This document shows, one piece after another, positions 35,371 through 61,470 of a stretch of DNA of 62,242 nucleotides; positions within the stretch are counted from its first letter, which is position 1, and each line of letters starts with the position of its first letter. Location: positions 1-62,242 of the IMG/VR virus record IMGVR_UViG_3300009183_000009. One strand, written 5' to 3'. Source of the DNA: a virus. Position numbers and translations under genes: made by a program. Below the pieces are notes generated by a model. The model saw only the letters and a list, made by a program, of their open reading frames with translations, ran no database searches and was not told where the DNA came from.

Positions 35371-35820
35371 TTACTTGGTTGGTTTACGAACAGAGATTGC
35401 GTACTCAGATACTGAGTTCAATCCGGGGGGTACAAGGCCGGGGTTTTCTTCAAGGAATGTCGACATGTTGGTCTGCGCTATGCGCTTCTCAAGCAAGTCA
35501 ACTGCTTCGTGCTGAAGCACAAAGGTCTTGAACGAGTCCCAGTCTTGTGTGTTGTAGCGTGTCTTGGTAGACAGCACTACAGTGCCTTGGTCAGTGCGCA
35601 CAGAGGACACGCCTAGTGCAAGCATCTGATCTTTTAGTGCGATCTTCACGGTGTCTTGTTGCCGCTTGATCTCTTCAACTTCATTTTCGTACCCTTGAGT
35701 TAGCTCTTGAATTCGAGCCGCCATTCTGCGGTACACCTTAGCCAGTTTGTCCATTGGGACGTTGGCTAACTCCTTGCTCTCTTCTGTGAGAGGTGCTTCA
35801 TCATCTATGACTGAGGTCAT
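35371..35820 (-). CDS. Coiled-coil protein of the replication block
   Basis: 149 residues after GGAGAAGCAA. Residues about 25-70 form a coiled coil (KVYRRMAARIQELTQGYENEVEEIKRQQ), followed by LKDQMLALGVSSVRTDQGTVVLSTKTRYNTQDW. That helix-then-strand pattern recalls Gp157- or Gam-type proteins, but the match is not strong enough to name it. Possibly a host nuclease inhibitor or DNA-end binding protein. Confidence 0.65.
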   Translation of the reverse strand: MTSVIDDEAPLTEESKELANVPMDKLAKVYRRMAARIQELTQGYENEVEEIKRQQDTVKIALKDQMLALGVSSVRTDQGTVVLSTKTRYNTQDWDSFKTFVLQHEAVDLLEKRIAQTNMSTFLEENPGLVPPGLNSVSEYAISVRKPTK

Positions 35821-35889
35821 TTGCTTCTCCTATTTTTTTGTCTAAGGTTTAACATCATACACGGAACAAAATCTCTTGCAACTCCTTTC

Positions 35890-37452
35890 TTAAATATTTT
35901 TTACTTCGCTATCAAACATGCCGACAAGCAACGCATGGTCAGTAACTTTAGCGGCCATTGCTTTGAATAGTTTTTTCTCAATTGGGCTTGACTCAATGTG
36001 TACCACAGTAACTTTGTCAGAGTCTTGACCCTTGCGATCTGCGCGAGCAATACATTGTGTGTACATCTCAACAGACATCAGAGGGCCAAAGAATACAACT
36101 GTGTCAGCGGCAGTCAGGGTAATCCCGTGGGCAGTTGCTTGAGGTTGCAACACGAGCACGCGTATCTTGTCAGTAGTCTGAAAGTCCGCAATGATCTGAC
36201 CGCGTTTTGTTGCTGTCACGTCGCCATGAATTTGTCCCACGGCAACGCCATTGCCTGACAAGTGCCGCACAATCGACTCAATGCTTGACCTGAACAGCGC
36301 AAAGATAATGACTTTTCTTTGTGTCTCCTCGAGCACTTCGTCCAACACATTGAGGCGTGGGGACGCATCGAACTCCACAACTTCTTTGTCGTCTGTGTAC
36401 GCCGCACCGCAAGATATTTGTAGCAACTTGTTTACCGCAACACCGGCATTGACTGCGCTGATGGTCTCCCCCGCCGCACGCACCATCATCTGCTCTTTGA
36501 GTAGGCGGTAGTATTTGTTTTGCTGGGGTGTCATGGGCACCTCACGCGTCACCGTGATAACTGGTGGCAGGTCAAGGCACTGGTCTTTTGTAAAACGTAT
36601 TGCTGGTTGAAGCACCTCGTACACCATGTCGCGTGCGTTAGCTTTGGGTGCCCACTTGAACATGCTGATCTTGTTCATCACCTTGTCGCGCCATGCAGTC
36701 TGAAACTTGGGCACGCCTGTAGGGTTGACCAGTCGAGCTAAGCCATACGCGTCCACAGGAGACTGCGAGGCAGGAGTGCCAGTCATCATCCACAGGTGGG
36801 TGTCGGGTCTGATGATTGATGCCAACGCCTTCCATCGCCGCGTAGACGGATTCTTGTATGCGTTTGCCTCATCGACAATCACAAGATCAAAGCGCCCATC
36901 ATTAATAATCTCTGTGGCAATCAAGTTGAGCCCATCGTAGTTGGCAATGACAAACTCGTAGTCTTGCTGAATCATCTCTATACGCCGTGAGGCTTGTTGA
37001 TGGTGTGCGACCACAGCGCTTCTGTGAATGATGCTTCGGTTGATGTCACCCATCCATGCGCTGTGCATGATGGACAAGGGGCACAGTATCAGCACCCTAC
37101 GCACCTCGCCTTTGTTCATCAAGTAGTCTGCCGCCCACAAGGCAGAGAGCGTCTTACCAGTTCCGGGGTCGTTAAAACAGAACGATCTGCGGTTCAAAGT
37201 CATGAACGCGGAGGTTTCTATTTGGTGAGCCATTGGTATAAACTTTCCCGGCCAGTGGTAGCGCTTAGTGATGGGCGACGGCACATCTTTTACTCCGAGA
37301 TTTTTGAGTACGCGTGTCTCGTCAAGCCCCCAGTACACAGCCACTTGATAGACGCCATCCTCATGACCAAGGACTTTGTGTTTGGGGATGATGCTGTACT
37401 TGTTTGGATTGCGCGTGCGTAGTATCAGCGCTTTGTTGTCAACAATTTCCAT
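35890..37452 (-). CDS. SNF2-type helicase/ATPase
   Basis: 520 residues from the ATG at 37452 (TAATG overlap with the upstream gene); an earlier in-frame start would add 9 residues. Motif I CFNDPGTGKT (92-101), motif II IVDEANAY (192-199), motif III MMTGTP (222-227) and a C-terminal motif VI QCIARADRKGQ are all present, so both RecA-like lobes are complete. Such proteins move along or remodel DNA in replication, recombination or restart. Confidence 0.9.
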   Translation of the reverse strand: MEIVDNKALILRTRNPNKYSIIPKHKVLGHEDGVYQVAVYWGLDETRVLKNLGVKDVPSPITKRYHWPGKFIPMAHQIETSAFMTLNRRSFCFNDPGTGKTLSALWAADYLMNKGEVRRVLILCPLSIMHSAWMGDINRSIIHRSAVVAHHQQASRRIEMIQQDYEFVIANYDGLNLIATEIINDGRFDLVIVDEANAYKNPSTRRWKALASIIRPDTHLWMMTGTPASQSPVDAYGLARLVNPTGVPKFQTAWRDKVMNKISMFKWAPKANARDMVYEVLQPAIRFTKDQCLDLPPVITVTREVPMTPQQNKYYRLLKEQMMVRAAGETISAVNAGVAVNKLLQISCGAAYTDDKEVVEFDASPRLNVLDEVLEETQRKVIIFALFRSSIESIVRHLSGNGVAVGQIHGDVTATKRGQIIADFQTTDKIRVLVLQPQATAHGITLTAADTVVFFGPLMSVEMYTQCIARADRKGQDSDKVTVVHIESSPIEKKLFKAMAAKVTDHALLVGMFDSEVKNI

Positions 37453-37778
37453 TACGCATCTTCCTTCAACCGCGCCCACGGCGTGTTGCTTTCTCTGAAC
37501 TCAACCTCTTCCATCAGTTTGTTTCTGTGAAGTCTTGATGATGCGTCCAACCAAAACTCATCATCTAGTTCAGACACATCAATCCACAAGTCTCCAAACT
37601 TTACTCGCCACGCATTGACCAATGTTGATAGCGGGATGGAATACGCTTCACGTTTATTGGGGTCGTCTACTTTCATGGCGGTGTATGGTTTTTTTGGTCT
37701 TAGCGCTTCTCTTGCATAAACGGACAAGTCTTCTAAGTCTTCTGTCAGTTGTTGACCAAGTGTTTTCATTCTTCCCAT
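37452..37778 (-). CDS. Hypothetical protein, paralogue of the next gene upstream
   Basis: 108 residues starting at ATG 37778 with AGGAGAAGCAA. The C-terminal half (REAYSIPLSTLVNAWRVKFGDLWIDVSELDDEFWLDASSRL) aligns with that of the 124-residue protein encoded immediately upstream, so the two arose by duplication. No catalytic residues. Perhaps a small protein that binds the helicase, with which it is translationally coupled. Confidence 0.7.
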   Translation of the reverse strand: MGRMKTLGQQLTEDLEDLSVYAREALRPKKPYTAMKVDDPNKREAYSIPLSTLVNAWRVKFGDLWIDVSELDDEFWLDASSRLHRNKLMEEVEFRESNTPWARLKEDA

Positions 37779-37792
37779 TTGCTTCTCCTGTT

Positions 37793-38167
37793 TTATTCTG
37801 GCATTCGGCACACATAACGTGCCCTGTCTGTTAAAAAATGAACTTCAACTTCTCCGAGTTGTTTAAGTCTGTTAAAAACTAATCTAAAAAATTCTTCTTC
37901 TTCTATTGACTCCATCGGCACCCAATCGTTTCCAAAACGTGCTATCCAAAGATTGACCAACCTGTCAACTGGAATTTTGAATGCTTCATTTTCAAGCATT
38001 GCGCTTGTGATTTCACTTTCAACAACACGCTTTGCTTTTAACGTCCAGTCATTTGATGCTGTGGTCTGATTTACGTTTGAAGCTTCGATTGTCAGATGCT
38101 GATTTGACGCGTAGATTGCTTCTATTTGTTGCCCCGCCTTTTGAAAGGGGTTGTTTATGATCGACAT
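37793..38167 (-). CDS. Hypothetical protein, paralogue, overlapping the HNH gene
   Basis: 124 residues if started at ATG 38167, which has AAGGAG 10 bases upstream. The conserved block (NEAFKIPVDRLVNLWIARFGNDWVPMESIEEEEFFRLVFNRL) is shared with its downstream neighbour. Its first about 40 codons lie inside the HNH gene in another frame. A later start (ATG at about 37999) would remove the overlap but has no clear ribosome site. Function unknown. Confidence 0.65.
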   Translation of the reverse strand: MSIINNPFQKAGQQIEAIYASNQHLTIEASNVNQTTASNDWTLKAKRVVESEITSAMLENEAFKIPVDRLVNLWIARFGNDWVPMESIEEEEFFRLVFNRLKQLGEVEVHFLTDRARYVCRMPE

Positions 38168-38984: not shown

Positions 38985-39277
38985 AGTTTGGCTGAGTTGA
39001 TTGCTTGCGTTAATCTGTTGGCAAAAGCTGTGACGAAGTTCTCGTTGTCGGTCAAGTCGTTGCCCATATCTTGCAGAATGATGTGCGTCAACTCATGCCA
39101 AAACGTGTCGTCGATTTCTCCTTGTTCAAACGGGTTGCCAAAGTCGTCGTACTTTGCTATCTCAACTAACTTCTTGCGGTAGTACGTGCGCCCCATTGCG
39201 GCGGGGTTCTGTATGGTGTGCCGCCACTCGACGTTGTATGTCGTCGGCCCCACCGTGAACTGCTTCGGTATCTTCAC
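38981..39277 (-). CDS. SprT-like / zincin metallopeptidase
   Basis: 98 residues from a GTG start with AAGGAGAAGCAA. HELTH (61-65, WHELTHIILQDMGND) is a complete HExxH zinc motif; the N-terminal part (TYNVEWRHTIQNPAAMGRTYYRKKLVEIAKYD) gives the strand layout of SprT-type peptidases. Such proteins can cleave protein-DNA adducts, and the location between polymerase and exonuclease genes fits. Short for the family, so possibly a minimal version. Confidence 0.82.
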   Translation of the reverse strand: MKIPKQFTVGPTTYNVEWRHTIQNPAAMGRTYYRKKLVEIAKYDDFGNPFEQGEIDDTFWHELTHIILQDMGNDLTDNENFVTAFANRLTQAINSAKL

Positions 39278-39287
39278 TTGCTTCTCC

Positions 39288-41255
39288 TTATGATTTTGCT
39301 AGTCCATATCTACGGTGCGCACCACCGTCAGCGGCCAAGGGTATCCCCGGCATGTAACTCGGCTCCATAGTCATCTGCGCCAAGACCCAAGTCTTCGCGT
39401 CAACAACTTCTGCGTCAGGCACCAACACGATCTGTTCATCGTGCACAGTACCAACCACAGGGTATCTCTTTGTCACCCTCAACATTCCATCGGTCATGAC
39501 AATGCGTGCCAATGCCTGCGTAACATTGTTTGTTATTTTTCCTGCATACAACTTCGTTGCACGCTCTCCGTACACCCACTGCGTTTTGCCTTTATCGTCT
39601 AACTCAGGGCGCAGATTTGGGTACAGAAGTTTCATTCCGTTTGGTAATTCTATCTCGCCTTTGCGGAATGTCAAACACTTGTGCGTGTACTCTTTGCCCA
39701 AATACAGCGACTTGTATATAAGCTCACTGAACAACGCCCACAACGCCACGATAGGCCAAGCAGTCCGGCGGTATGAGTCAATGATTGCCTTGGCGGCAAG
39801 GGCATGAGTCAAGAGTTCCTTGTCAGAACAAGTGTGGGGGATGTCAAACAGCTTGTCGTCGTTGCCGTCCCACTCCACAAACTTCTGCGCGTACTCAGAA
39901 CTCACCCCCAGTGCTTTGGCAAAGTCTTTGGAGTACCTGACTGGCGGTGCGCCAAGGAAGCCAGTTAGAAGTTGCGACGCAAAGGATGCCCAACCGAGGC
40001 CATACCCACAACCGAGTAGGGCACTCTTCGCAGATTGTCTAAGATCTGGATGGGAATCTTTGGTGAGGTTTGGTATGTTGAACATCTGAGCCCCGAACGC
40101 CGCATAAGGGTCACCGCCTGCCCTGAAGATGTCAAGCATATCTTGGTAGTCACCAAGCCACGCGAGTACTCGCGGTTCAATTTGCGATAAATCCCCAACG
40201 ACAAGTTGATAGCCTTCGGGAGCCATAATTGCTTTGCGTAGGAAACTACCTCGCTTGAGGTTTTGCATGTTGATTGCACTGCCCTTTGCCGCCGTCCACC
40301 TGCCCGAGAGAGCACCGTAATACGATAAAGGTACAGGTAACTTGCCGCGCTGGGATATATCGAGGAAGCGCTGGGCTCTGGTTCGTTCGGTCGTAGACTT
40401 AACCCGAAGGCGTGCTTCGCAAAGGAGGGCAACGTCCTCACGTTCACCATTGAGCAACGCTTGGAAGAGGGCGTCGTTCTTTGCCAGCGCGAGCGTTTGC
40501 TTGCCGGTAGTTTTACTAATTTTTGTGGGGGCAACAACCCCGAGGCTTTTAAGTATGTCAGCAAACTTCGGGTTCGACGCAAGTTCAGTTTCTTGTATGC
40601 CGAGCTTTTGTAATAGACCTTCACGTGTTTCTCCTTCTTCTGTTAGTGCCTTGATAAGCATCTTGTGGTCAAGCTCAAGCGTTGGTCGTGTGTACATCTT
40701 GAGCGTCATGTCGATAAGCCTTAGCTCACTCTTGGGGTATCCTTTGACCAAGCGATCAAAGATTCGTTCGCATAGATATACGTCGTGTTTGCAATAGTCT
40801 GCAAGTTCAGATTCCACGAGCGCGTCCAGCTCGGCCATACCATCGGTACTATGCACGGCTGTCCCTTTTGGGGGAAGATTAAAATCTCCCGCAAGTTTGG
40901 CGAGACTGTTGCCAACTTCCACGCCGCGTAAAGCTCTCGCCATTGACAGGGTGTCGAAGATAAAGGCTGGTCTAGCGTTATATATCCACTCCATAATGGA
41001 TACATCGAACTGTGCGTTGTGCGCAAGCACTGCGGTTCGTCCCCAGTCGATTCCAAAAAAGAATTCAGGTAGGTCTGATCCTCTAACCCATCTAATGTCG
41101 TCTGCGCTTCCGTACTCATGGACACAAGCGCCGAAAGATATGAACCTTTTATCACGTATGTACTCCTCAGTTGTCATCTTTGATAACGTGTAGTCACGCT
41201 TGTCCCACCGAGTTTCAAAGTCGATGGTCAGTATCCTGTCAAATGGTTTAGTCAA
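39288..41255 (-). CDS. Family A DNA polymerase with 3'-5' exonuclease
   Basis: 655 residues from a TTG start, 8 bases after AAGGAGG and in a TTGA overlap with the upstream gene. Exonuclease motifs: IDFET (11-15), AHNAQFD, and DYCKHDV. Polymerase motif A is GDLSQIEPRVLAW (about 354), motif B LRQSAKSALLGCGYG, motif C VHDEQ (about 604). Motif A has Pro where most enzymes have Leu (IEPR rather than IELR). This is the phage replicative polymerase. Confidence 0.93.
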   Translation of the reverse strand: MTKPFDRILTIDFETRWDKRDYTLSKMTTEEYIRDKRFISFGACVHEYGSADDIRWVRGSDLPEFFFGIDWGRTAVLAHNAQFDVSIMEWIYNARPAFIFDTLSMARALRGVEVGNSLAKLAGDFNLPPKGTAVHSTDGMAELDALVESELADYCKHDVYLCERIFDRLVKGYPKSELRLIDMTLKMYTRPTLELDHKMLIKALTEEGETREGLLQKLGIQETELASNPKFADILKSLGVVAPTKISKTTGKQTLALAKNDALFQALLNGEREDVALLCEARLRVKSTTERTRAQRFLDISQRGKLPVPLSYYGALSGRWTAAKGSAINMQNLKRGSFLRKAIMAPEGYQLVVGDLSQIEPRVLAWLGDYQDMLDIFRAGGDPYAAFGAQMFNIPNLTKDSHPDLRQSAKSALLGCGYGLGWASFASQLLTGFLGAPPVRYSKDFAKALGVSSEYAQKFVEWDGNDDKLFDIPHTCSDKELLTHALAAKAIIDSYRRTAWPIVALWALFSELIYKSLYLGKEYTHKCLTFRKGEIELPNGMKLLYPNLRPELDDKGKTQWVYGERATKLYAGKITNNVTQALARIVMTDGMLRVTKRYPVVGTVHDEQIVLVPDAEVVDAKTWVLAQMTMEPSYMPGIPLAADGGAHRRYGLAKS

Positions 41256-45468: not shown

Positions 45469-46662
45469 TTAAACAGAGATACGAACTAACTTGCCGTGAG
45501 TGGGAACGAAGTCTTCGTTCTCCACCACACCCCACAGAGACGGCATCGGGGTATTCGGGGTATCGCAACCGAGGTAGCCATCAGTCAGCCACACGATTGC
45601 TTTAGCATTGATTTTGTGGTGCAGTATGTAGTCAACAACTGCTTGCGGTGTAGTGCCGCCACCACCTTGAGGTTTGAGTAGTGTCGCAATCTGCTCGTAG
45701 TCAACAGGCTTGAACACTTGGTCACCGCACACACCATCGTCCCACCACAAGATGCGAACAGACTCGGGTCTTACTTGCGTGAGCATACGAGCAATCTCAC
45801 CGAAGATGAGTCGATAGTATGGCGACATCGAACCTGATGTATCGGGTGCAAGGATAAGCTCACCGACTGTCTCGTTGAAGTGCGATGGCATGATGAAGCC
45901 CGATGCAAGCAAGCGCTTGTTGGGAGGACAGAAGCGTGAGTTCTCGTCGCCACTACACACAGACACAAGCCAGTCCTGCATAGCCTCGACATAGTTGGTT
46001 GTGCGTTCCTTGGCTGTGCCGAAGATGTCACGACCCCCCTTGCCCTTGCCTGCCAACTTACGCGCAAGCATCTCGCCTTGACGATTGGCATCGTCAACAT
46101 TCTTGCTGTGCTCTTGCTCATCCTCTAAGTCATCGAACACAGGGTCTTCATGCACATCGATAGGTTCATCGAAGTCATCGCCACTACCATTGCCATGCTT
46201 GTCAGGTTCTTTGCGACCTTGCTTGATGAGGTCATTGAGCACCTGAGGGAATGACCAACCGAAGTACTTGCGGTCAATGCACAGCGTATCAGTAGGTCTC
46301 TCAACGAATGTGAAGTTAGGGTCAAGCTCTTCGATGAGAGCATTGACCACATAGTCCTGCGCGATGTTGGAAAGCCTCGGCATTGCTCTGGTCTCTCTCC
46401 TGTACAGGATGCAATGCTTGAGTGCCACATGAAAGTTCTCATGCAGTACAAGGTAGCGCAGTTGCTTGCGGTTGAGTGGTGCGATAAATTCCTCGCCATA
46501 CTTCTTGTCACGCCCATTGGTTGCGGCTGTGGGTGTGGTCTTTGAGACCTCTGACTTGCCCATACATATCACACCGCTGAGCAGTGCATATTGTGGGTGC
46601 CGCATACAGTCAATGTTCGCGGCTTGTACACGCTGGTTGAGCGTCATCTTCTCGAATGTCAT
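45469..46662 (-). CDS. VWA-domain protein with HExxH motif (DUF2201/CobT-like)
   Basis: 397 residues. The N-terminal half carries HENFH (74-78) in LVLHENFHVALKH, a zinc-peptidase-like motif as in DUF2201_N proteins. A disordered acidic linker (about 155-195) follows. The C-terminal VWA domain has the MIDAS motif DTSGSMS (about 275), GGGGTTPQ and WLTDGY. VWA proteins often dock on MoxR ATPases to bring a substrate. All motif residues look intact, so both halves could be active. Confidence 0.88.
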   Translation of the reverse strand: MTFEKMTLNQRVQAANIDCMRHPQYALLSGVICMGKSEVSKTTPTAATNGRDKKYGEEFIAPLNRKQLRYLVLHENFHVALKHCILYRRETRAMPRLSNIAQDYVVNALIEELDPNFTFVERPTDTLCIDRKYFGWSFPQVLNDLIKQGRKEPDKHGNGSGDDFDEPIDVHEDPVFDDLEDEQEHSKNVDDANRQGEMLARKLAGKGKGGRDIFGTAKERTTNYVEAMQDWLVSVCSGDENSRFCPPNKRLLASGFIMPSHFNETVGELILAPDTSGSMSPYYRLIFGEIARMLTQVRPESVRILWWDDGVCGDQVFKPVDYEQIATLLKPQGGGGTTPQAVVDYILHHKINAKAIVWLTDGYLGCDTPNTPMPSLWGVVENEDFVPTHGKLVRISV

Positions 46663-46700
46663 AGTGCTTCTCCTGTAGTGTTTGACATTATTCTAACATA

Positions 46701-49903: not shown

Positions 49904-50133
49904 TTCACTTCTCCTAAAGTTGTTTGGCAATACCCCACATACCCATTCTGTTCATACAGTTTGGTTGCTTCTTCATCGCTCTGCGCCTCTTCAGGGTGCT
50001 TGTAGCCGACCACCTTTATGTGTTCCTCATCAAGACTACCGAGATAGCCCAAGTCGTCCATGAGATTTGTAATGGCTTCACTCTTGTCTTCGCCCACTAC
50101 CCACACATCAACAGTTATTTTGTATACATTCAT
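49900..50133 (-). CDS. Small acidic hypothetical protein
   Basis: 77 residues (MNVYKITVDVWVVGEDKSEAITNLMDDLGYLG), strand-helix-strand with an acidic C-terminus. The arrangement resembles its 62-residue neighbour, so the two may be distant paralogues. Leader AAGGAGAAACAAC. Confidence 0.65.
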   Translation of the reverse strand: MNVYKITVDVWVVGEDKSEAITNLMDDLGYLGSLDEEHIKVVGYKHPEEAQSDEEATKLYEQNGYVGYCQTTLGEVK

Positions 50134-50144
50134 GTTGTTTCTCC

Positions 50145-50405
50145 TTACTTTGTTCTAAGTTCTACGATGAACGGTGATGGGAGTGCTTCATATAACTCTT
50201 TGGTTATTTCTTTCAACTCACCTGCTCGGCTTGCGTGGTCACCGAACCAATACCATTCATCTTCACGACTATGGCAGTCGCCCCAAAAGCTTTTGGTTAA
50301 CCTATCCAAGTATTTGTCGGGGTCACCCTTGGTTTTGAATTTGACGACTGAATCACTATCCATATCGCCATTACGAGTTTCGATTGCACCGATGTAATAT
50401 TTCAT
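50145..50405 (-). CDS. Small hypothetical protein
   Basis: 86 residues (MKYYIGAIETRNGDMDSDSVVKFKTKGDPDKYLDRL), with EDEWYWFGDHASRAGELKEIT, probably a compact alpha/beta fold. Leader AGGAGAAGCAGA. It follows a copy of the early palindrome (50438-50454). Unknown function. Confidence 0.65.
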   Translation of the reverse strand: MKYYIGAIETRNGDMDSDSVVKFKTKGDPDKYLDRLTKSFWGDCHSREDEWYWFGDHASRAGELKEITKELYEALPSPFIVELRTK

Positions 50406-50437
50406 TCTGCTTCTCCTAAAGTTGTTTGTGTAAACTC

Positions 50438-50454
50438 AGTATCAGGGTGATACT
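50438..50454. promoter_or_regulatory. Repeated palindrome, copy 4 (AGTATCA-GGG-TGATACT)
   Basis: Perfect 7-3-7 inverted repeat, overlapping the last base of the upstream gene (50454-51086) and lying 33 bases upstream of the ATG at 50405. One of five copies. Confidence 0.8.
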
Positions 50455-51086
50455 CAGTCGTCTCTGCGCCGAGACAATAGCTCGGGCACTTTCATGTGCT
50501 CTCTGTCCTCCCTTCCTATTGATAGCCAGCGGTCACGCAATGACTCAATGGCAAACGATGAGACCAACTCCCACCAGTTACGCTTCTCTTTCTTGTACTT
50601 GCTTGGCTCAGACTCGAAGTCGAGCAGTATCCTGCTCTTCTCCCTTGTCAGTATTGATAGGTACTTTTTTAGTAACCCCTCGTACTCGCCTTGTCCCATC
50701 TGTTCGGCGTAGCTACGCTGTGCTCTCACCTTTTTGATTTCATAACCCATCGGGTCTAAGGTTTGTTTGAGTTGGTTGCGCCACTTGTCTACCCATGCCT
50801 CGTAGCGTGCCTTGCTCATGATGAGCCGCGCCATGCGTTGGCGTTCCTCAATGATGGATTCCATCTTTGATTTCCCTATGTCGCCACTCACCACCATGTT
50901 GTGCAATTCCTTGCGGGTCTTCTTGCTTGGGGGTGTGCGCTTGGGTTGGCAAGCTTTGCAATTCTTGGAGGAGATGGTCATAAGCACATCACCTTTCATG
51001 CCTCGGGCTTGCATTTGTGCGCGTGTGAGTCTGCGGTTGAACTCGGCGAGAGGCTTTTCTTCTCCGCATTTGTTACACTTTTTCAT
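50454..51086 (-). CDS. Zinc-ribbon protein, unknown function
   Basis: 210 residues from the ATG at 51086, giving an N-terminus that opens directly with a zinc ribbon: KKCNKCGEEKPLAEF and a later KNCKACQ supply C-x2-C pairs. The longer frame upstream runs into the 278-bp palindrome and is unlikely. The rest is basic and helical (KKTRKELHNMVVSGDIGKSKMESIIEERQRMARLIMSK). It sits next to the palindrome, so DNA binding there is a fair guess. Confidence 0.7.
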   Translation of the reverse strand: MKKCNKCGEEKPLAEFNRRLTRAQMQARGMKGDVLMTISSKNCKACQPKRTPPSKKTRKELHNMVVSGDIGKSKMESIIEERQRMARLIMSKARYEAWVDKWRNQLKQTLDPMGYEIKKVRAQRSYAEQMGQGEYEGLLKKYLSILTREKSRILLDFESEPSKYKKEKRNWWELVSSFAIESLRDRWLSIGREDREHMKVPELLSRRRDD

Positions 51087-51112
51087 ACATTTGTCCACTT
51101 CGTTGTTCGAGC

Positions 51113-51390
51113 ATACCCACCATTTTTCCTTACTGGACAACCTAGTGGGTATCTCGGTTGTCCGATGTTTACTGGCGATTCTACTACTCTATCCCACGAT
51201 ACCTATCGCATACGGACATATCAAAGGATAAATAACTTTTCACACCCACCTCAACCTGTATATATATATATTTATCTTTTTATCTCTTATATATATATAG
51301 GTATTGTGGGATGGGTATGGCTTGAAGCCCCGCCAGTATTGGGATGCGCGATACCCACCAGATTGTCCACATGGGAAAAATAGTGGGTAT
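51113..51390. repeat. 278-bp imperfect palindrome centred at about 51251.5
   Basis: Outer 41-base arms (51113-51153 and 51350-51390) match in inverted orientation at 34 of 41 positions. Inside, ACTGGCG (51171) pairs with CGCCAGT (51331), ATCCCACGATACCTAT (51191) with 51297-51312 (15 of 16), and AAAGGATAAATA (51223) with 51269-51280 (11 of 12). Three of these pairs share the centre 51251.5 exactly; the ACTGGCG pair centres at 51254. Each 41-base arm is itself flanked by ATACCCAC and GTGGGTAT. Confidence 0.8.
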
Positions 51391-51431
51391 CGTTCCCACA
51401 CCTGTATATAAACACAGTTGTGGTTAAACAC

Positions 51432-51448
51432 AGTATCACATTGATACT
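51432..51448. promoter_or_regulatory. Repeated palindrome, copy 3 (AGTATCA-CAT-TGATACT)
   Basis: Perfect 7-3-7 inverted repeat, 6 bases after the stop of the 65-residue gene and next to the 278-bp palindrome. One of five copies. Confidence 0.8.
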
Positions 51449-51454
51449 GAGTCG

Positions 51455-51652
51455 TCATATCAGGCGCAGTTGTTGGGCTGAACGCTTGATGTCTTGCCAC
51501 TCATCGAGGGCGGCTTCTTCTTTGAGCTTGCGCTTCTTGTCGTGGTATGCCTTGGGGTTCTTGTCGTATAGGTCTGCCATAGCTTTGCAGTCTTTGCGTA
51601 GCTCGGCGAGCTTGGTGCGGGTATCGGATGGGATGTGGATGCGGTATTTCAT
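51455..51652 (-). CDS. Small basic helical protein
   Basis: 65 residues (MKYRIHIPSDTRTKLAELRKDCKAMADLYDKN), almost wholly helical and basic, so nucleic-acid binding is possible. Leader GGAGTAATCAA directly before the ATG. No known family. Confidence 0.68.
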   Translation of the reverse strand: MKYRIHIPSDTRTKLAELRKDCKAMADLYDKNPKAYHDKKRKLKEEAALDEWQDIKRSAQQLRLI

Positions 51653-51656
51653 TTGA

Positions 51657-51836
51657 TTACTCCTTGTCGTTGTTGAAGATTTGCATGAGTTGTACGCCGA
51701 GCATGAAGGCGCAGAGTAGGGGCAACATAAGCCACAAGGGCGGGATGTATTCGAGTGCTACCTCAATGTGGGTCTTGATGACGACTACGCAGATAGCGCT
51801 GAGGAATACATGGGACAGGACTTGTGTGGATTTCAT
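51657..51836 (-). CDS. Small two-span membrane protein
   Basis: 59 residues from the ATG at 51836 with GGAGAACCACA upstream. Two hydrophobic segments (QVLSHVFLSAICVVVI and IPPLWLMLPLLCAFMLGV) and a charged tail (QIFNNDKE). The longer upstream frame crosses a terminator-like hairpin and is unlikely. Candidate host-envelope-directed early protein. Confidence 0.65.
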   Translation of the reverse strand: MKSTQVLSHVFLSAICVVVIKTHIEVALEYIPPLWLMLPLLCAFMLGVQLMQIFNNDKE

Positions 51837-51880
51837 TGTGGTTCTCCAGTTGAATCGGGATGAGAGTGATTCGTATTTGA

Positions 51881-51921
51881 CAGAAAAAGAAATAGCGGCG
51901 GGACTTGGCATCCACGCCGCT
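51881..51921 (-). terminator. Leftward intrinsic terminator-like hairpin
   Basis: On the leftward strand AGCGGCG...CGCCGCT forms a seven-pair GC-rich stem (51894-51921) followed by ATTTCTTTTTCTG. It follows the first early gene and the palindrome copy at 51934. Likely partial terminator or attenuator between the first and second early genes. Confidence 0.7.
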
Positions 51922-51933
51922 TGGAAAAAACTC

Positions 51934-51950
51934 AGTATCAAGTTGATACT
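51934..51950. promoter_or_regulatory. Repeated palindrome, copy 2 (AGTATCA-AGT-TGATACT)
   Basis: Perfect 7-3-7 inverted repeat between the stop of the first early gene (51957) and a leftward terminator-like hairpin. One of five copies. Confidence 0.8.
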
Positions 51951-51956
51951 AAGCTG

Positions 51957-52331
51957 TTACACAGAAGCCAAGAAGCGGCGTTTCTCAGCCGCAGTCAACT
52001 TACCGAAACTTGTTACCAAACGAGCAACCTTGTCAGTCTTGCTGTTGGTCTTAGCCTTGGGTTTGCTTGGTGCTATCTCATCGCCAAAGATGCGGTTAAG
52101 CACTCTGTTCATTGCCATTCGCGCGGTGCTACCTTGCTTGAATGTCGTGCCGCGTTGACCCTCGTAGGGCTTGCAGTTGTACTTCTTAGATGCCCATTCG
52201 ATGACCAATGGCTTTGCGTCAGTACGAGAGGCGATGCCTAAGGGCAACAAGTCAGAGAGAAGAACGACTGACACATTGTCAGCTTTGTTGAACACGGCGA
52301 AAGCCTGTGCTTTGATGGATGCGAGTTGCAT
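51957..52331 (-). CDS. First early gene: small basic protein
   Basis: 124 residues from the ATG at 52331 with GGAGTAATCAAT directly upstream; an earlier ATG lies inside the leader hairpin and is rejected. N-terminal alpha/beta part (QLASIKAQAFAVFNKADNVSVVLLSDLLPLG), then a Lys-rich C-terminus (KPKAKTNSKTDKVARLVTSFGKLTAAEKRRFL). First gene of the leftward block, so probably a host-takeover or regulatory protein. No named family. Confidence 0.72.
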   Translation of the reverse strand: MQLASIKAQAFAVFNKADNVSVVLLSDLLPLGIASRTDAKPLVIEWASKKYNCKPYEGQRGTTFKQGSTARMAMNRVLNRIFGDEIAPSKPKAKTNSKTDKVARLVTSFGKLTAAEKRRFLASV

Positions 52332-52340
52332 ATTGATTAC

Positions 52341-52372
52341 TCCAAAAGAAAAGCCCCGCATAGTGGCGGGGC
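52341..52372 (-). terminator. Leftward hairpin with U-tract before the first early gene (attenuator-like)
   Basis: Leftward strand: GCCCCGC-loop-GCGGGGC (seven GC-rich pairs) followed by TTTTCTTTTGGA. The hairpin lies inside the leader, between the promoter-like site near 52408 and the ribosome site of the first early gene, so it may act as an attenuator rather than an end-of-operon terminator. Confidence 0.75.
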
Positions 52373-52407
52373 GTCACAGCGAATGAGTTCCCCCAATCGA
52401 TGCATCT

Positions 52408-52413
52408 AGTATA
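52408..52413 (-). promoter_or_regulatory. Leftward early promoter candidate (extended -10)
   Basis: Leftward strand reads TGGTATACT, an extended -10 element (TG-N-TATACT). No good -35 box is seen at 16-18 bases. It lies 42 bases from palindrome copy 1 and drives toward the hairpin leader of the first early gene. Sequence match only. Confidence 0.5.
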
Positions 52414-52454
52414 CCACAATGCGTTTGGAAAGACCCTTTACACCACTCGGACTC

Positions 52455-52471
52455 AGTATCAGTTTGATACT
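52455..52471. promoter_or_regulatory. Repeated palindrome, copy 1 (AGTATCA-GTT-TGATACT)
   Basis: Perfect 7-3-7 inverted repeat upstream of the leftward promoter candidate in the divergent control region. One of five copies, the one best placed to control the whole early block. Confidence 0.8.
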
Positions 52472-52635
52472 GACCCCACCTACCCCCCACCCCCCAATAT
52501 GCACAGCCATGCCCCGTCCCTGTGTGAACACTATTCCCCAGCCATTCTAAATACTTCAGTAAACCTTATTTACTACACCCCATAAATTTTATAAAAATTC
52601 CAAATAACCTATGTCAAACTTTGGACATTCCACCA

Positions 52636-52668
52636 TAAAAAAAGCCCCCTGACTTACATCAAGGGGCT
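52636..52668 (-). terminator. Leftward intrinsic terminator-like hairpin
   Basis: Leftward strand: AGCCCC...GGGGCT with a T-run (TTTTTTTAT) after it. It would stop any leftward transcription started in the late block before it enters the early promoter region. A candidate transcription barrier. Confidence 0.7.
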
Positions 52669-52708
52669 GAAGAGACTTTGCAGTCTAGGAGAAGCAACGG
52701 ACAACTGC

Positions 52709-52737
52709 TTGCCGCATCACTTAAGAAATAGTATACA
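52709..52737 (+). promoter_or_regulatory. Rightward late promoter candidate
   Basis: TTGCCG (52709-52714), a 17-base spacer, and TATACA (52732-52737). Four of six bases in each box fit the host sigma-70 consensus. It starts 54 bases before the terminase small subunit ATG. Sequence match only. Confidence 0.45.
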
Positions 52738-52767
52738 CTTCGGCCATCGAGGTTGCAAGGGCCGCGC

Positions 52768-53364
52768 ATGTTAGAACACTTGGTGCAATTTGAGCCAGAC
52801 GTCACCAGTCTGGAAGATTTCAGGGAACTGGATGATGTGTCATCTGGGGATTTGCTGTCTGCGCAAGTTGCTACAACAGAATGGCTTAAAGAACTTGGTG
52901 TTGCCGCAGATGCAGAAGTAAATAAGGAAGCGCAAACTACCGCCGCCCGTGAAGCTTTCAATGTCGTCACCACAAACACAGACGATGCAACACAAAAATC
53001 CAAACTGCTCCAACTTAAAACCCCAGAGGCTGTGCGCCACATTACAGGCATGTTGACAGCCTATGACTGGGAGTTTGTGGAGATGGCCAAAGAGTTGCGC
53101 GGGTACACCGTAGCAAAACTTTTTGAAGAAACCCAATCCCCCAACGCCAACATCCGCCTTAAAGCCTTAGGACTACTGGGTAAAGTTACAGAGGTGGGTT
53201 TATTTACAGATAAGCTTGAAGTCAAGAAGACTGACCTCACCGATGAGGAGATCGACCGCAAGCTTAAAGACAAGCTGGCCAAGTTCATGGGCGTGCAAGA
53301 CGCTGATGTAGTAGAAGACATCGAGATAAATGAAACTGAACGACCTGACACTGAATCCAACTGA
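52768..53364 (+). CDS. Terminase small subunit
   Basis: 198 residues from the ATG at 52768 with AAGGG upstream (an in-frame TTG at 52753 is less likely). The conserved block TPEAVRHITGMLTAYDWEFVEMAKELRGYTVAKLFEET and the following RLKALGLLGKVTEVGLF are typical of small terminase subunits in this phage group. It binds the packaging site and recruits the large subunit encoded next, which overlaps by 35 bases. Confidence 0.88.
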   Translation: MLEHLVQFEPDVTSLEDFRELDDVSSGDLLSAQVATTEWLKELGVAADAEVNKEAQTTAAREAFNVVTTNTDDATQKSKLLQLKTPEAVRHITGMLTAYDWEFVEMAKELRGYTVAKLFEETQSPNANIRLKALGLLGKVTEVGLFTDKLEVKKTDLTDEEIDRKLKDKLAKFMGVQDADVVEDIEINETERPDTESN

Positions 53365-54868
53365 GATTCAGGCCATCCAGAAAGCTCTCCCCACCCTAAA
53401 CTTGGCGGAGAAGGTGGAGCTTATGGGTATGTTGGAAGAGCGTGAGAAACGCTACCAAGTCAACGTGGGTCGTACAAACATGATTGACTTTGCCAAACAC
53501 GTTTACCCCGGATTCAAAGTCGGGCCACACCACAAGAAGTTGGCGCGGATATTCCAAGACGTGTTAGACGGTAAAAAGAAGAGAGTAATTATCAACATTG
53601 CCCCACGTATGGGTAAGTCCGAGTTTTCGTCTTATTTGTTCCCCGCGTTCTTCCTAGGTAAAAACCCTAACAAGAAGATCATTATGGGGACGCACACTGC
53701 GTCGCTGTCTGAAGACTTTGGACGGCGGGTTCGTAACTTACTGGATGATGAGCACTATCATGAGTTATTTCCCCAAACACTTGTGGCAGATGACCAGAAG
53801 GCCGCTGGAAAATGGTCAACAGCCGCCGGTGGTCAGTACTACGCCGCCGGTGTCGGCGGTGCTCTTGCTGGACGCGGCGCTGACCTATTCGTTATTGATG
53901 ACCCGCATTCGGAACAAGACGTAAAAGCAAACAGTCGTCTAGCGTTTGACACAGCGTGGAGTTGGTTCCAGACTGGCCCTTTGCAACGTCTGATGCCGGG
54001 CGGTGCGATCATAGTCATCATGACGCGCTGGGGGCCGTTGGACTTAACTGGCAGACTCATACAGTATCAGGTGAGTAACCCTGACTCCCCCGTTTGGGAG
54101 ATCGTGGAGCTTCCAGCCATCCTGAACGAGAACACGGAGAACGAGAAGTCGCTCTGGCCGGAGCAGTGGCCGCTCGAGGCGTTGAAGTCTGCCAAGTCCT
54201 CAATGGATCCACGGTACTGGAACGCGCAGTACATGCAGCAGCCTACCTCGGATACGGCGGCAATCATCTCAAGGAAGCACTGGCGTATATGGCAGGGGGA
54301 CGACCCACCCACTTGTGAGTACATCATTCAGTCTTGGGACACGGCGCATGAAACCAAAACAACATCCGACTATTCTGCCTGTACTACTTGGGGGGTCTGG
54401 TACAACGAGGAGGAGAACGACAAGCCCCAGCTTATCCTCCTTGACGCTTTCAAAGACCGGATCGCATTCCCAGAACTCAAACAAGCTGCCTTTAAGCACT
54501 GGAAGGAATGGCAACCCGATGCCTTCATTGTGGAGAAAAAGGCGGCAGGTGGGCCACTGATCCAAGAACTCAGGGCGATGGGCATCCCTGTACAAGAATT
54601 TACACCGAGCCGTGGAAACGATAAGATGGTGCGTGTGCAGGCTATTGCGGACTTGTTCTCCTCTGGTATGGTGTGGGCACCCGACACTCGCTGGGCACGT
54701 GAAGTGATTGAGGAAGTTGCGTCCTTCCCAGTTGGCGAGCACGATGATTATGTGGACACGACCAGCCAAGCACTGCTTCGATTCAGACAAGGCGGCTTCA
54801 TCACGCTAGACACTGATGAGCAAGATGAGCCACAACTTTTTAAGCGCCGTACTGCGGCATACTATTGA
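53330..54868 (+). CDS. Terminase large subunit (packaging ATPase-nuclease)
   Basis: 512 residues. Walker A in a modified form APRMGKSE (91-98), Walker B LFVIDDPHS (186-194), coupling motif IVIMTRWGP, and nuclease aspartates in SWDTAHETK, VEKKAAGGP and DDYVDTT near the end. Packages DNA into the capsid and cuts it. The Arg-Met-Gly form of the P-loop is seen in many terminases. Overlaps the small subunit gene by 35 bases. Confidence 0.94.
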   Translation: MKLNDLTLNPTEIQAIQKALPTLNLAEKVELMGMLEEREKRYQVNVGRTNMIDFAKHVYPGFKVGPHHKKLARIFQDVLDGKKKRVIINIAPRMGKSEFSSYLFPAFFLGKNPNKKIIMGTHTASLSEDFGRRVRNLLDDEHYHELFPQTLVADDQKAAGKWSTAAGGQYYAAGVGGALAGRGADLFVIDDPHSEQDVKANSRLAFDTAWSWFQTGPLQRLMPGGAIIVIMTRWGPLDLTGRLIQYQVSNPDSPVWEIVELPAILNENTENEKSLWPEQWPLEALKSAKSSMDPRYWNAQYMQQPTSDTAAIISRKHWRIWQGDDPPTCEYIIQSWDTAHETKTTSDYSACTTWGVWYNEEENDKPQLILLDAFKDRIAFPELKQAAFKHWKEWQPDAFIVEKKAAGGPLIQELRAMGIPVQEFTPSRGNDKMVRVQAIADLFSSGMVWAPDTRWAREVIEEVASFPVGEHDDYVDTTSQALLRFRQGGFITLDTDEQDEPQLFKRRTAAYY

Positions 54869-54875
54869 GGTACGG

Positions 54876-55142
54876 ATGGAAACACAGAAGTTCATGGGCA
54901 AAAACCAACTAATAGACCGACTGGCAGCGCAGATCGGTTCTCGGGAGACGGCGCTTGAAGTTCTACAAAAGCGGGGGCACGTAGATGCCAAAGGCAACTT
55001 GACCGTTGAAGGCAAAAAACGCGACGCCATGACCGCCGAAGAGCGTGCACTGGACAGAGCAAAAACTCGCACGGGGAAACCCACATCAGCATTTAAATAT
55101 AGCCCAACAACAAATCGGGCTACTCTGAGAAAGAAGTACTGA
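54876..55142 (+). CDS. Small basic protein between terminase and portal
   Basis: 88 residues from ATG 54876 after a TGAGGTACGG leader. The block KNQLIDRLAAQIGSRETALEVLQKRGHVDAKGNLTVEGKKRDAMTAEERALDRAK recurs in phage proteins between terminase and portal genes. Function unknown; possibly a packaging-related factor. One base separates it from the portal start. Confidence 0.75.
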   Translation: METQKFMGKNQLIDRLAAQIGSRETALEVLQKRGHVDAKGNLTVEGKKRDAMTAEERALDRAKTRTGKPTSAFKYSPTTNRATLRKKY

Positions 55143-55143
55143 C

Positions 55144-57663
55144 ATGGCAACCAACATAGACAAAGCCCTGTACCAGCAACCCCAAGGTATGGAAGAACTG
55201 GCACAAGATGAAGATGCCATTGAGATTGAAATTGTTGATCCTGAAGCGGTCAACATCAGCATTGGTGACTTAGAAATCAGCATGATTCCCAGTGAAGATG
55301 AGGATGACTTCAACGTAAACTTGGCCGAGGACATGGACGAAGGTGCAATGTCTTCACTGGCAGGAGACTTAGCCGGAGACGTTGAGCAAGACAAAGGCGC
55401 ACGCAAAGACTGGGAGAAAGCATATACCGAGGGACTCAAACTCCTCGGCTTGCAGTACGAGGAACGTACTGAACCTTGGAACGGCGCTTGTGGCGTGTTC
55501 CACCCCATGATTACAGAAGCGGTAGTACGTTTCCAGTCAGAGACAATTACAGAACAATTCCCAGCCGCAGGCCCAGTGCGTACAAAAATCTTGGGTAAAG
55601 AGACTCCTGAGAAACAAGAAGCTGCTGTGCGTGTCGAGGCTGACATGAACTACGAGTTGACAGAAGTCATGCGCGAGTTTAGGCCTGAGCATGAGCGTAT
55701 GTTGTGGAGCCTCCCCGCTACTGGTTCAGCGTTCAAGAAGGTTTACTACGACCCAAACATTGGCCGTCAAGTATCTATATTTATACCAGCAGAAGATATT
55801 ATTCTGCCCTACGGAACAACAGACTTAGACACTTGCTACCGCTTGACACACGTCATGCGCAAGACCAAGAACGAGATTATCAAGCTCCAGCAAGCAGGCT
55901 TTTACCGTGACATTGAGTTGCCTGACCCCAGTAAAGAACAAGACAACATCAAGAAAGCCAAAGACAAAGAGACAGGGTTCTCTGACTTAAATGATGAGCG
56001 CTACACCTTGTATGAGTGCCATGTTGACTTGGTGCTGGAAGGTGATGAAGACAAAGACGACGACGGTGAACCTACCGGCGTAATGCAACCATACGTAGTT
56101 ACCCTAATAAAAGGAAGCAATGATGTCCTCGCCATCCGCAGAAACTGGGAACAAGACGATCCCCTCAGACTTAAGCGACAACACTTTGTTCACTACCAAT
56201 ACATCCCGGGTTTTGGAGCTTACGGCTTTGGCCTTTTCCACCTCATTGGAGGATACGCCAAGTCAGCCACCAGTCTCATGCGTCAGCTTGTCGATGCTGG
56301 GACGCTTTCTAACTTACCCGGAGGTCTTAAGACTCGCGGAATGCGCATTAAAGGAGACGACACCCCCATCGCTCCCGGAGAATGGCGAGACGTAGACATT
56401 GCTTCTGGGGCACTGCGTGACAGCATCCTGCCCCTACCCTACAAGGAGCCAAGCATTGTCCTGTCTGGCTTGCTGGACAAGATCGTAGAAGAAGGCCGTC
56501 GCTTTGCCGCAACAGCGGATATGAACGTGTCGGACATGTCCGCACAGGCTCCTGTGGGTACGACACTGGCTCTTTTGGAGCGCCAGCTTAAGGTTATGTC
56601 TGCTGTGCAAGCCCGTCTGCACTACACCTTCAAACAAGAGTTGCGTCTGTTGGCTGCGATCATTCGGGACTACACCGAGCCAGATTACGACTACGACCCC
56701 GTTGATGCTCCTCGCAAGGCCAAGAAAAAAGACTATGACCATGTAGACATCATCCCTGTAAGCGACCCTAACGCGGCAACAATGAGCCAGCGGGTTGTGC
56801 AGTACCAAGCCGTCATTCAAATGGCGCAGATGGCGCCCGATATTTATGACTTGCCGCAGTTGCACCGCAACATGCTCCAAGTTTTGGGTATCAAGGATGC
56901 CGATAAACTTGTTCCCCTACCTGACGACATGAAGCCCAAAGATCCTGTGACTGAAAACATGGGAATCATAAAGAGCGAGCCAGTCAAGGCGTTCTTCTAC
57001 CAAGACCATCAGGCGCATATGCAGGTGCATATGGCTCTTATACAAGACCCAACTATTGCACAGATGCTTGGCCAAAACCCCAAGGCACAGCAGATTTCAG
57101 CCGCACTTATGGCGCACATTGCTGAACACGTTGGTTTTGAATATCGTCGTAAGGTTGAGGAGCAACTGGGTGCAGCGCTGCCGCAACAGGATGAAAACCT
57201 GCCTCCAGAAGCAGAATTTGCATTGTCTACTTTATTGGCGCAAGCATCTCAACAAGTGGTGCAACAAGGCCAAACGCAAGCGGCACAACAGCAAGCTCAG
57301 CAGCAAGCGCAAGATCCCATCTTACAAATGCAGCAAGCCGAGCTTCAATTAAAGCAACAAGAGTTGCAAATGAAGGCTCAAGAGGCACAGGCTAAAAACC
57401 AAATTGCACAACAGGAATTGCAGCTAAAGATGCAGATTGCTGGACAGCAAATGGAATTAGATAAAGCAAAAATGCAATCAAAACTGGAATACGACGGCAC
57501 CAAACTTGGAGCGCAAATTAAGAAAGATCAAGCTGAAATAGAGGCTAACCAACAAAGAGAGGGTATGCGCATGGGTATTGATATGGCCAAGCACAAAGCC
57601 CAAAAAGATTTAGATGCTCGGCAGACAGCACTTGATTATTCAAAGGAGAAACCAATTAAATGA
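55144..57663 (+). CDS. Portal protein
   Basis: 839 residues. A long acidic N-terminus (about 1-75) precedes the core: ERTEPWNGACGVFHPMITEAVVRFQSETITEQFP, then TGSAFKKVYYDPNIGRQVSIFIPAEDIILPYG, then RQLVDAGTLSNLPGG. The last about 130 residues are a Gln/Ala-rich coiled coil and a Lys-rich tail, as in barrel-forming portals of short-tailed phages. Makes the ring through which DNA enters and leaves the capsid. Confidence 0.9.
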   Translation: MATNIDKALYQQPQGMEELAQDEDAIEIEIVDPEAVNISIGDLEISMIPSEDEDDFNVNLAEDMDEGAMSSLAGDLAGDVEQDKGARKDWEKAYTEGLKLLGLQYEERTEPWNGACGVFHPMITEAVVRFQSETITEQFPAAGPVRTKILGKETPEKQEAAVRVEADMNYELTEVMREFRPEHERMLWSLPATGSAFKKVYYDPNIGRQVSIFIPAEDIILPYGTTDLDTCYRLTHVMRKTKNEIIKLQQAGFYRDIELPDPSKEQDNIKKAKDKETGFSDLNDERYTLYECHVDLVLEGDEDKDDDGEPTGVMQPYVVTLIKGSNDVLAIRRNWEQDDPLRLKRQHFVHYQYIPGFGAYGFGLFHLIGGYAKSATSLMRQLVDAGTLSNLPGGLKTRGMRIKGDDTPIAPGEWRDVDIASGALRDSILPLPYKEPSIVLSGLLDKIVEEGRRFAATADMNVSDMSAQAPVGTTLALLERQLKVMSAVQARLHYTFKQELRLLAAIIRDYTEPDYDYDPVDAPRKAKKKDYDHVDIIPVSDPNAATMSQRVVQYQAVIQMAQMAPDIYDLPQLHRNMLQVLGIKDADKLVPLPDDMKPKDPVTENMGIIKSEPVKAFFYQDHQAHMQVHMALIQDPTIAQMLGQNPKAQQISAALMAHIAEHVGFEYRRKVEEQLGAALPQQDENLPPEAEFALSTLLAQASQQVVQQGQTQAAQQQAQQQAQDPILQMQQAELQLKQQELQMKAQEAQAKNQIAQQELQLKMQIAGQQMELDKAKMQSKLEYDGTKLGAQIKKDQAEIEANQQREGMRMGIDMAKHKAQKDLDARQTALDYSKEKPIK

Positions 57664-61442: not shown

Positions 61443-61470
61443 AAGGGGGCCTTGTGCCCCCTTTTCTTTT
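61443..61470 (+). terminator. Rho-independent terminator after the major capsid gene
   Basis: AAGGGGGC-CTTGT-GCCCCCTT with a T-rich tract (TTTTCTTTT), eight pairs, seven bases after the stop codon. Clear intrinsic terminator that would raise head-gene dosage over downstream genes. Confidence 0.9.

Follow-up and report, generated by a model that had tools for sequence, protein, structure and literature searches.

The control region of the viral genome analysed here carries a conserved gene for a small RNA, an assignment strongly supported by its sequence. We lean towards the explanation that this is an antisense RNA blocking the ribosome sites of early genes, with a second leftward unit starting at promoter P2 and attenuated at a hairpin, T1, in part of the phage group. 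The window, the whole stretch of DNA that was analysed, is IMG/VR virus record IMGVR_UViG_3300009183_000009 (62,242 bases), and its leftward and rightward genes diverge from 52332-52767. The leftward arm encodes DNA polymerase A, an SNF2-type helicase, a DUF927/primase-like protein and a PD-(D/E)XK nuclease, and the rightward arm encodes terminase and portal. The labels "early" and "late" for these arms were assigned from their gene functions. For HTVC027P, a distant relative, a mosaic-like arrangement of the time classes is described (PMC12753301).

The product of E1, the first gene of the leftward arm (Table 1), had no match in PHROG (E up to 0.001) or Pfam (up to 0.01). The list of open reading frames extends the E1 frame to an in-frame ATG at 52361, inside the T1 loop. 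We took 52331 as the start because no Shine-Dalgarno (SD) sequence is visible before the ATG at 52361 and because it is absent from relatives whose T1 loop differs. On the rightward side, the putative small terminase subunit had no PHROG match, and the large terminase is ~50% identical to those of DSL-LC04 and the Pelagibacter phages HTVC023P and HTVC027P. No host was found in a genome scan, which returned four MAG contigs labelled Rhodocyclaceae, Chitinophagales, Gammaproteobacteria and Peregrinibacteria.

Table 1 Features of the control region and predicted target sites in the window
Feature	Position	Strand	Basis or remark
E1, first early gene, 124 aa	51957..52331	-	ATG at 52331
T1, terminator-like hairpin	52344..52372	-	stem 52372-52353, U-tract TTTTCTTTT 52352-52344
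Predicted 5'-end hairpin of early transcript (UCGAUUGGGGGAACUCAUUCG)	52380..52400	-	fold
P2, putative early promoter	52401..52416	-	extended -10 TGG-TATACT 52416-52408; start predicted near 52401
T2, predicted small-RNA terminator	52637..52668	-	stem 52668-52643, then T7/U-tract
Predicted small RNA, ~85 nt	52637..52724	-	start predicted from -10, end at U-tract
Hairpin 2 of small RNA (AGACU-GCAA-AGUCU)	52673..52686	-	per-sequence stem test
Core UUGCUUCUCCUA (reverse complement UAGGAGAAGCAA)	52686..52697	-	complementary to early ribosome-binding sites
Hairpin 1 of small RNA	52692..52722	-	fold and alignment
P1, putative small-RNA promoter	52730..52758	-	-35 TTGCAA 52758-52753, 17-bp spacer, -10 TATACT 52735-52730
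Putative small terminase subunit	52768..53364	+	place before TerL
Large terminase subunit	53330..54868	+	phrog_38, E 6.7e-103
Predicted target, UAGGAGAAGCAA then AUG of 149-aa gene	35820..35832	-	12 nt perfect complement
Predicted target, AGGAGAAGCAA then AUG of 108-aa gene	37778..37789	-	core complement
Predicted target, AGGAGAAGCAA then GUG of 98-aa gene	39277..39288	-	core complement
Predicted target, AGGAGAAGCA, ribosome site of 397-aa gene	46662..46674	-	core complement
Predicted target, UAGGAGAAGCA, ribosome site of 86-aa gene	50405..50418	-	core complement

The first-pass annotation had reported two hairpins in this region, T1 and T2, and both proved to be real and correctly placed. Under a stringent terminator rule, which demanded a perfect stem with 5 or more G-C pairs and no fewer than 6 T in 8, both strands of the whole window yielded three sites, namely T1, T2 and 61445-61461, compared with a mean of 0.2 sites in ten block-shuffled windows. 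A looser scan of 50000-56000 returned 13 sites versus 5.8 in shuffles, and T1 and T2 stood at the top of the list. The third strong terminator, at 61445-61461 on the + strand, stands after a 303-aa gene ending at 61436. The annotation had also taken T2 for a leftward barrier facing the late promoter. We rejected this role, since T2 is the 3' end of a conserved, predicted small leftward RNA with a promoter of its own, and it is this RNA that T2 would terminate. The promoter scan showed no rightward match convincing as the late promoter that T2 was said to face, and the promoter match closest to T2 (TTGCAA-17-TATACT, 52758-52730) points leftward. A possible rightward promoter sharing the AGTGTACACT palindrome has a TTG upstream in 43 of the 67 listed relatives, but its best-placed -10 matches average only 3.5/6.

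The predicted small RNA has its own putative promoter and intrinsic terminator, as do RNAs of the trans-acting class that blocks ribosome-binding sites (RBSs). In P1, TTG lies exactly 17 bp from the -10 in 55/67 distinct listed relatives, whereas each of the other spacers tested (13-21) occurs in at most 13/67, and the promoter in these 55 has the form TTG...17 bp...TAYACT-like. The fold of the window RNA has an energy of -35.4 kcal/mol (z -4.73), which was equalled by 0 of 200 shuffles. Its score against the small-RNA model R1 was 75.1 bits, the window sequence having contributed to that model. We fixed the strand of the RNA as - because the U-tract is present on that strand only and because the terminator wobbles, read as - strand RNA, are biased to G-U (35 versus 4 A-C, counted over related and hence not independent sequences). 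RNAs bound by Hfq have T runs like the one found here, of about seven.

Conservation within the RNA was assessed in alignment A1, which holds 53 of 68 sequences, the others being too long or mis-bounded. CUCCU (52691-52687) in the core is unpaired in the predicted fold and invariant in all 53 aligned sequences, against a mean column identity of 44%; part of the core lies within hairpin 1 in that fold. In hairpin 1, at least 90% of the 53 keep CAA in the 5' arm and TTG in the 3' arm. RNAalifold on the MAFFT alignment recovered the terminator stem alone, and hairpin 2 was hence tested sequence by sequence, after exclusion of 5 of the 68 sequences as mis-bounded; 3 of the remaining 63 have no terminator by our rule. 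Its stem comprises 4 or more Watson-Crick pairs in 43/51 distinct listed relatives (mean 4.2 pairs versus 0.76 in shuffled sequences), counts that include the plainly mis-parsed L035 and L068. The arms of hairpin 2 differ wholly among relatives (AGACT/AGTCT, GATGG/CCATC, CAGTTG/CAACTG, GTTCAA/TTGAAC and TCACACAC/GTGTGTGA).

These relatives came from scans of viral contigs, which gave at least 80 loci with the large terminase and 11 with E1. The start of the putative small terminase gene could be placed in the window and in 87 of 91 loci, and the resulting 88 records yielded 68 distinct P1-to-T2 stretches, 12 duplicates and 8 failures of the rule. Among the failures, L015 and L029 are cut by the contig end, L042 and L044 have no module and no match to the small-RNA model at E up to 1, L037 is reduced (17.1 bits), and L063, L064 and L080 have a divergent promoter region, despite which L063 matches the model at 39.8 bits. 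The module has the same order in relatives: promoter, hairpin 1, core TTGCTTCTCCT, short hairpin and terminator with a T run. As an out-of-sample check, we scanned IMG/VR viral contigs with a pattern for hairpin 1 and the core alone, GCAAGCAGTTGC-N(0-30)-TTGCTTCTCCT. All 54 loci found matched the model; 47 were distinct, and 41 were absent from the earlier loci. These 41 new loci contain the terminator in 41 cases, the 17-bp promoter in 38 and hairpin 2 in 35, and a divergent terminase homologue lies 25-66 bases away in 41/41. Seven long contigs searched with the model contained one high-scoring copy each (over 37 bits). A small-RNA copy is also present in one (L138, 31.8 bits) of the four MAG contigs, all of which have a related terminase. 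This distant copy, at 3192-3272, has a perfect 8-bp hairpin 1; the contig is labelled Chitinophagales and its terminase is 67% identical. In the pieces of DSL-LC04, HTVC027P, HTVC023P and Pag-Yong1 searched (110 kb), there was no significant R1 match, and no isolate carrying the module turned up.

On the + strand of the window, the core complement AGGAGAAGC occurs once, at the RNA locus. Of its seven occurrences on the - strand, five are SD sequences of leftward genes (sites 35831, 37789, 39288, 46674 and 50417; Table 1), and the other two (13379 and 61948) lie away from any gene start. The product of the 397-aa target gene has DUF2201 metallopeptidase-like and VWA-like domains. R1 also weakly scored the complement of two early sites, at 37745-37801 (+, 20.4 bits) and 35787-35902 (+, 13.5 bits). 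We then searched both strands of 21 phage contigs (766 kb) with the target pattern AGGAGAA(A)GCA(1-3)N(0-3)ATG/GTG. There were 53 matches on the early strand, not independent because several are orthologous genes (149-aa, 98-aa and 397-aa families), and 10 on the late strand, all at small-RNA loci. As read, the frame that follows runs for 43 codons or more in 50 of the 53 early matches, and in the other three it is cut short by a misread start or by the contig end. With scrambled SDs there were 0 matches in the same contigs. When GC was replaced by AC, CC, TC or CG, the early matches numbered 24, 7, 3 and 1 and the late matches 1, 2, 1 and 0, so the AC variant, a poorer match to the RNA, is itself common in early genes. 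With 53 early matches and 0 late matches outside the RNA loci, the complementarity to several target RBSs is above chance. Many early genes, E1 included, lack the target site, and the pattern had 0 matches in 110 kb of DSL-LC04, HTVC027P, HTVC023P and Pag-Yong1. A second style of ribosome site, GGAGTAATCAA..ATG, is common to five leftward genes (51652, 49304, 47695, 45443 and E1), and the site at 44296 is nearly the same.

SD usage also differs between the arms. GGAGA-type SDs precede 101/279 early versus 29/358 late genes; of the 21 genomes, 16 have enough genes for a comparison, and in 15 of these the share is higher in early genes. UAAGG SDs precede 2 early versus 47 late genes. We rejected the GGAGA excess as proof of co-evolution. 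It is unspecific and proves nothing alone, because DSL-LC04, in which no small RNA was found, has the same bias (8/25 early versus 1/20 late) and HTVC023P has the reverse (0/10 versus 6/17).

Covariation in trans between RNA and sites was weak and suggestive only. The test covered 17 genomes and 160 AGGAG sites with 2000 permutations of the RNAs, relatedness not being controlled in any of its counts. The match of sites to their own RNA was reached by 23 of the 2000 permutations for both flanks, 49 for the downstream flank only and 140 for the upstream flank only. For the single base before AGGAG the result was negative (676/2000). AAAGC sites made up 5/5 in genomes with a TTTCTCC core versus 14/41 in those with TTCTCC, again without control for relatedness. 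Two genomes, G002 and G003, have a changed core yet retain AGGAGAAGC sites.

At the head of the early transcript, T1 has the stem GCCCCGC/GCGGGGC (7 G-C pairs, loop of 6), and its fold (-15.9 kcal/mol, z -4.17) was equalled by 0 of 200 shuffles. Its U-tract directly abuts the SD GGAG (52343-52340) of E1. The -10 of P2 sits 36 nt upstream of the hairpin, and like elements occur in the leaders of relatives; P2 was missing from the promoter-scan list for want of a -35. T1 is therefore placed as a predicted intrinsic terminator between a putative promoter and the first gene. A strict pattern scan for the P2-T1 leader found one contig, already known, the pattern being too strict to inform.

We scored 68 distinct leaders (12 further records failed) and classed 20 as terminator-like, 29 as having another hairpin and 19 as having none. 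On recount, L024 and L062 (G-rich stems without a clean U-tract) were moved out of the terminator-like class and L044 and L060 were dropped as mis-called starts. T1 is thus kept in 18/66 distinct listed leaders; in the other 48, either the hairpin has no clean U-tract or none was found. Where it is kept, the stem covaries and the U-tract is retained alongside (GCCCC/GGGGC, GCCTC/GAGGC and GCCAA/TTGGC). No alternative antiterminating fold appeared in the minimum-energy folds of the leaders. The 5'-end hairpin was predicted in 29 of 30 leaders with a pattern-placed start (from reading the folds; all but L002); it occurs with or without T1 and is hence not merely the partner of T1. The idea that T1 acts as an attenuator or switch at the head of the operon, put forward in the first-pass annotation, is partly supported. 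The anatomy and the covarying stem in 18 leaders fit, whereas the 48 leaders without a clean terminator do not. With T1 missing from these 48 and the 5' hairpin more widespread, a terminator-based switch would operate in no more than some of these phages. A T1 attenuator is plausible, but not general.

An AGGAG SD precedes E1 in 0/18 leaders with T1 versus 28/48 without, a contrast that is partly geometric and confounded by relatedness. In the 18 T1 leaders the SD is not AGGAG because the U-tract runs up to GGAG. In T1-bearing phages, the small RNA would target E1 poorly, and T1 may restrain the gene in its place.

Several other elements were seen in the control region; those with an inverted repeat, AT-rich, G-rich or GTTC character were counted in relatives with loose patterns, so that their counts are rough. 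The inverted repeat TGTCAAACTTTGGACA at 52612-52627, just beyond T2, looks like an operator; many relatives have TGTCTAACGTTAGACA or a close form, and L042 and L044, which have no small-RNA module, retain a similar half of it. Near this repeat, the AT-rich AAATTTTATAAAAATT (52584-52599), with like sequence in many relatives, is a possible promoter or origin element. A C run on the + strand (52473-52495; G on the leftward transcript) is conserved in relatives, often as the quadruplex-like GGGGTGGTGGGGGTATGGTGGGGTC, and together with the AT-rich block it could form a replication origin. The palindrome-like GAACACTATTCC lies mid-region at 52526-52537, and many relatives have GGAACAGTGTTC on the other strand.

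The explanation we lean towards takes the region to hold two leftward transcription units, one from P1 giving a small RNA of ~85 nt that would end at T2, and one from P2 giving the early mRNA. The promoter geometry, the hairpins, the terminator, their conservation, the place next to the terminase gene and the complementarity are present in the sequence; from these we infer that the RNA is made, that its pairing represses, when it acts, and that T1 attenuates. The core CUUCUCCU, lying between the two hairpins, would pair together with its neighbours with the SDs of genes in the leftward replication arm. In some genes the pairing would reach the start codon, the complement including AAAUG, so that the duplex would cover it. 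Such pairing would keep ribosomes off early genes and block initiation; late genes, which have no matching site, would be spared. An RNA encoded at the edge of the late arm would in this way be a translational brake on early genes, and host mRNAs with the same SD type would perhaps also be hit. The mRNA from P2 would carry the 5' hairpin and, in some of the phages, among them the present one, would also be attenuated by T1 just before the SD of E1. More tentatively, and with more doubt than confidence, the reading may be extended to the phage group, a widespread one, with one anti-SD RNA beside the terminase gene switching translation from early to late. Some early genes would carry an extended ribosome site that matches the RNA, AGGAGAAGCAAAUG and near forms, late genes would avoid the site and in some cases use UAAGG, and host mRNAs of the GGAGA type would maybe be hit.

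Four other explanations bear on parts of this picture. The conserved AGGAGAAGCA might be a real + strand SD in a rightward transcript that starts further left and encodes a short leader peptide or a terminase with an extended start, the hairpins then being part of its leader. The core complement can indeed serve as such an SD, as ATG, GTG or TTG follows 4-12 nt downstream in 43/61 distinct listed relatives (35 of them ATG right after it), and the resulting frame extends into the terminase in two contigs. However, a start codon is missing at this place in 18/61, among them the window; the encoded peptides vary and many of them stop early; outside the RNA loci, the late strand of the 21 contigs did not contain the site; and the U-tract, the 17-bp promoter and the G-U bias all indicate a - strand RNA. 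We regard this explanation as unlikely. It is quite improbable that P1 is a second early promoter with T2 as its attenuator, in which case the RNA would be a terminated leader and read-through would add early transcription. P1, T2, P2, T1 and E1 do all lie leftward and in line, but T2 is present in 41/41 new loci while T1 is missing from 48/66 listed leaders, the fold shows no structure competing with T2, and E1 is already served by P2.

The small RNA might also act mainly on the host, as an anti-SD RNA that lowers host translation in the manner of the Burkholderia "toxic" double-hairpin RNAs of RF02278. CU-rich stretches of the latter are the reverse complement of RBSs, and overexpression of one of them attenuated growth (PMC5688073). 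The window RNA shares their layout of a CU-rich anti-SD stretch, short hairpin and terminator, and scores 19.7 bits with the RF02278 covariance model, below the family threshold of 50. Against this, its match extends past the SD into GCA and, among phage genes, falls on the early arm only, 53 to 0, and the Bordetella relative S17 did not impair growth of E. coli (PMC11722255). Five relatives (L053, L033, L021, L065 and L043) compared with Rfam at E up to 1 returned rdlD alone, without RF02278, and the likeness is hence one of layout. A mainly host-directed role seems to us improbable. The remaining explanation is compatible with our reading of T2 and has a prospect not far short of even: T1 could be an element for stability or ribosome access in the 5' leader, its U-tract being merely terminator-like. 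This fits the 48 other leaders, in which that slot has either a hairpin lacking a clean U-tract or no hairpin that was found; the joint retention of stem and U-tract where T1 is present, with a covarying stem, speaks for a terminator.

Promoter-proximal attenuators and put/nut antitermination leaders are a known class of elements between a promoter and the first gene. T1 shares their position, but differs in that no alternative fold was seen and in its absence from 48/66 listed leaders. Early-to-late switching in phages is usually explained by transcription, through sigma factors, antiterminators or phage-owned polymerases. If our explanation is true, one small RNA reading a shared code of early ribosome sites would provide a translational route to this switch. 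A literature search by title and start of abstract, with most subscription journals outside its range, found no paper on a phage anti-SD RNA against early genes. The window RNA would work like known RBS-blocking small RNAs, yet it falls below every Rfam threshold. Burkholderia RNA 7 (anti-hemB, RF02837) aligns weakly over GCUUCUCCU and the terminator (18.1 bits versus a threshold of 49.5), and the terminator carries much of such weak scores because matches such as Spot 42 (19.1 bits versus 80) also appear.

The C4 antisense RNA of phages P1 and P7 (RF01695), which gave no Rfam match for the window RNA, likewise comes from phages and blocks a ribosome-binding site of the phage by pairing with it (PMC12197685). 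Its one described target is the ant mRNA, whereas the window RNA is predicted to address many dispersed early genes. Lambda OOP, PreS and other phage small RNAs are also small phage transcripts that pair with mRNA, OOP acting on cII and PreS on host dnaN, and the passages of PMC12197685 that treat these two describe no group-wide matching of RBSs. Similar in layout is RF02278 (Betaproteobacteria toxic small RNA, related to Bordetella S17), likewise a short RNA with an unpaired CU-rich stretch complementary to RBSs, followed by a hairpin and a terminator. The window RNA differs in being phage-encoded, in its extra 5' hairpin, in a core extension that matches phage early sites and in adjoining the terminase gene. 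If the explanation is true, it would be a phage counterpart, with definable targets, of a host anti-SD double-hairpin RNA whose role is unclear.
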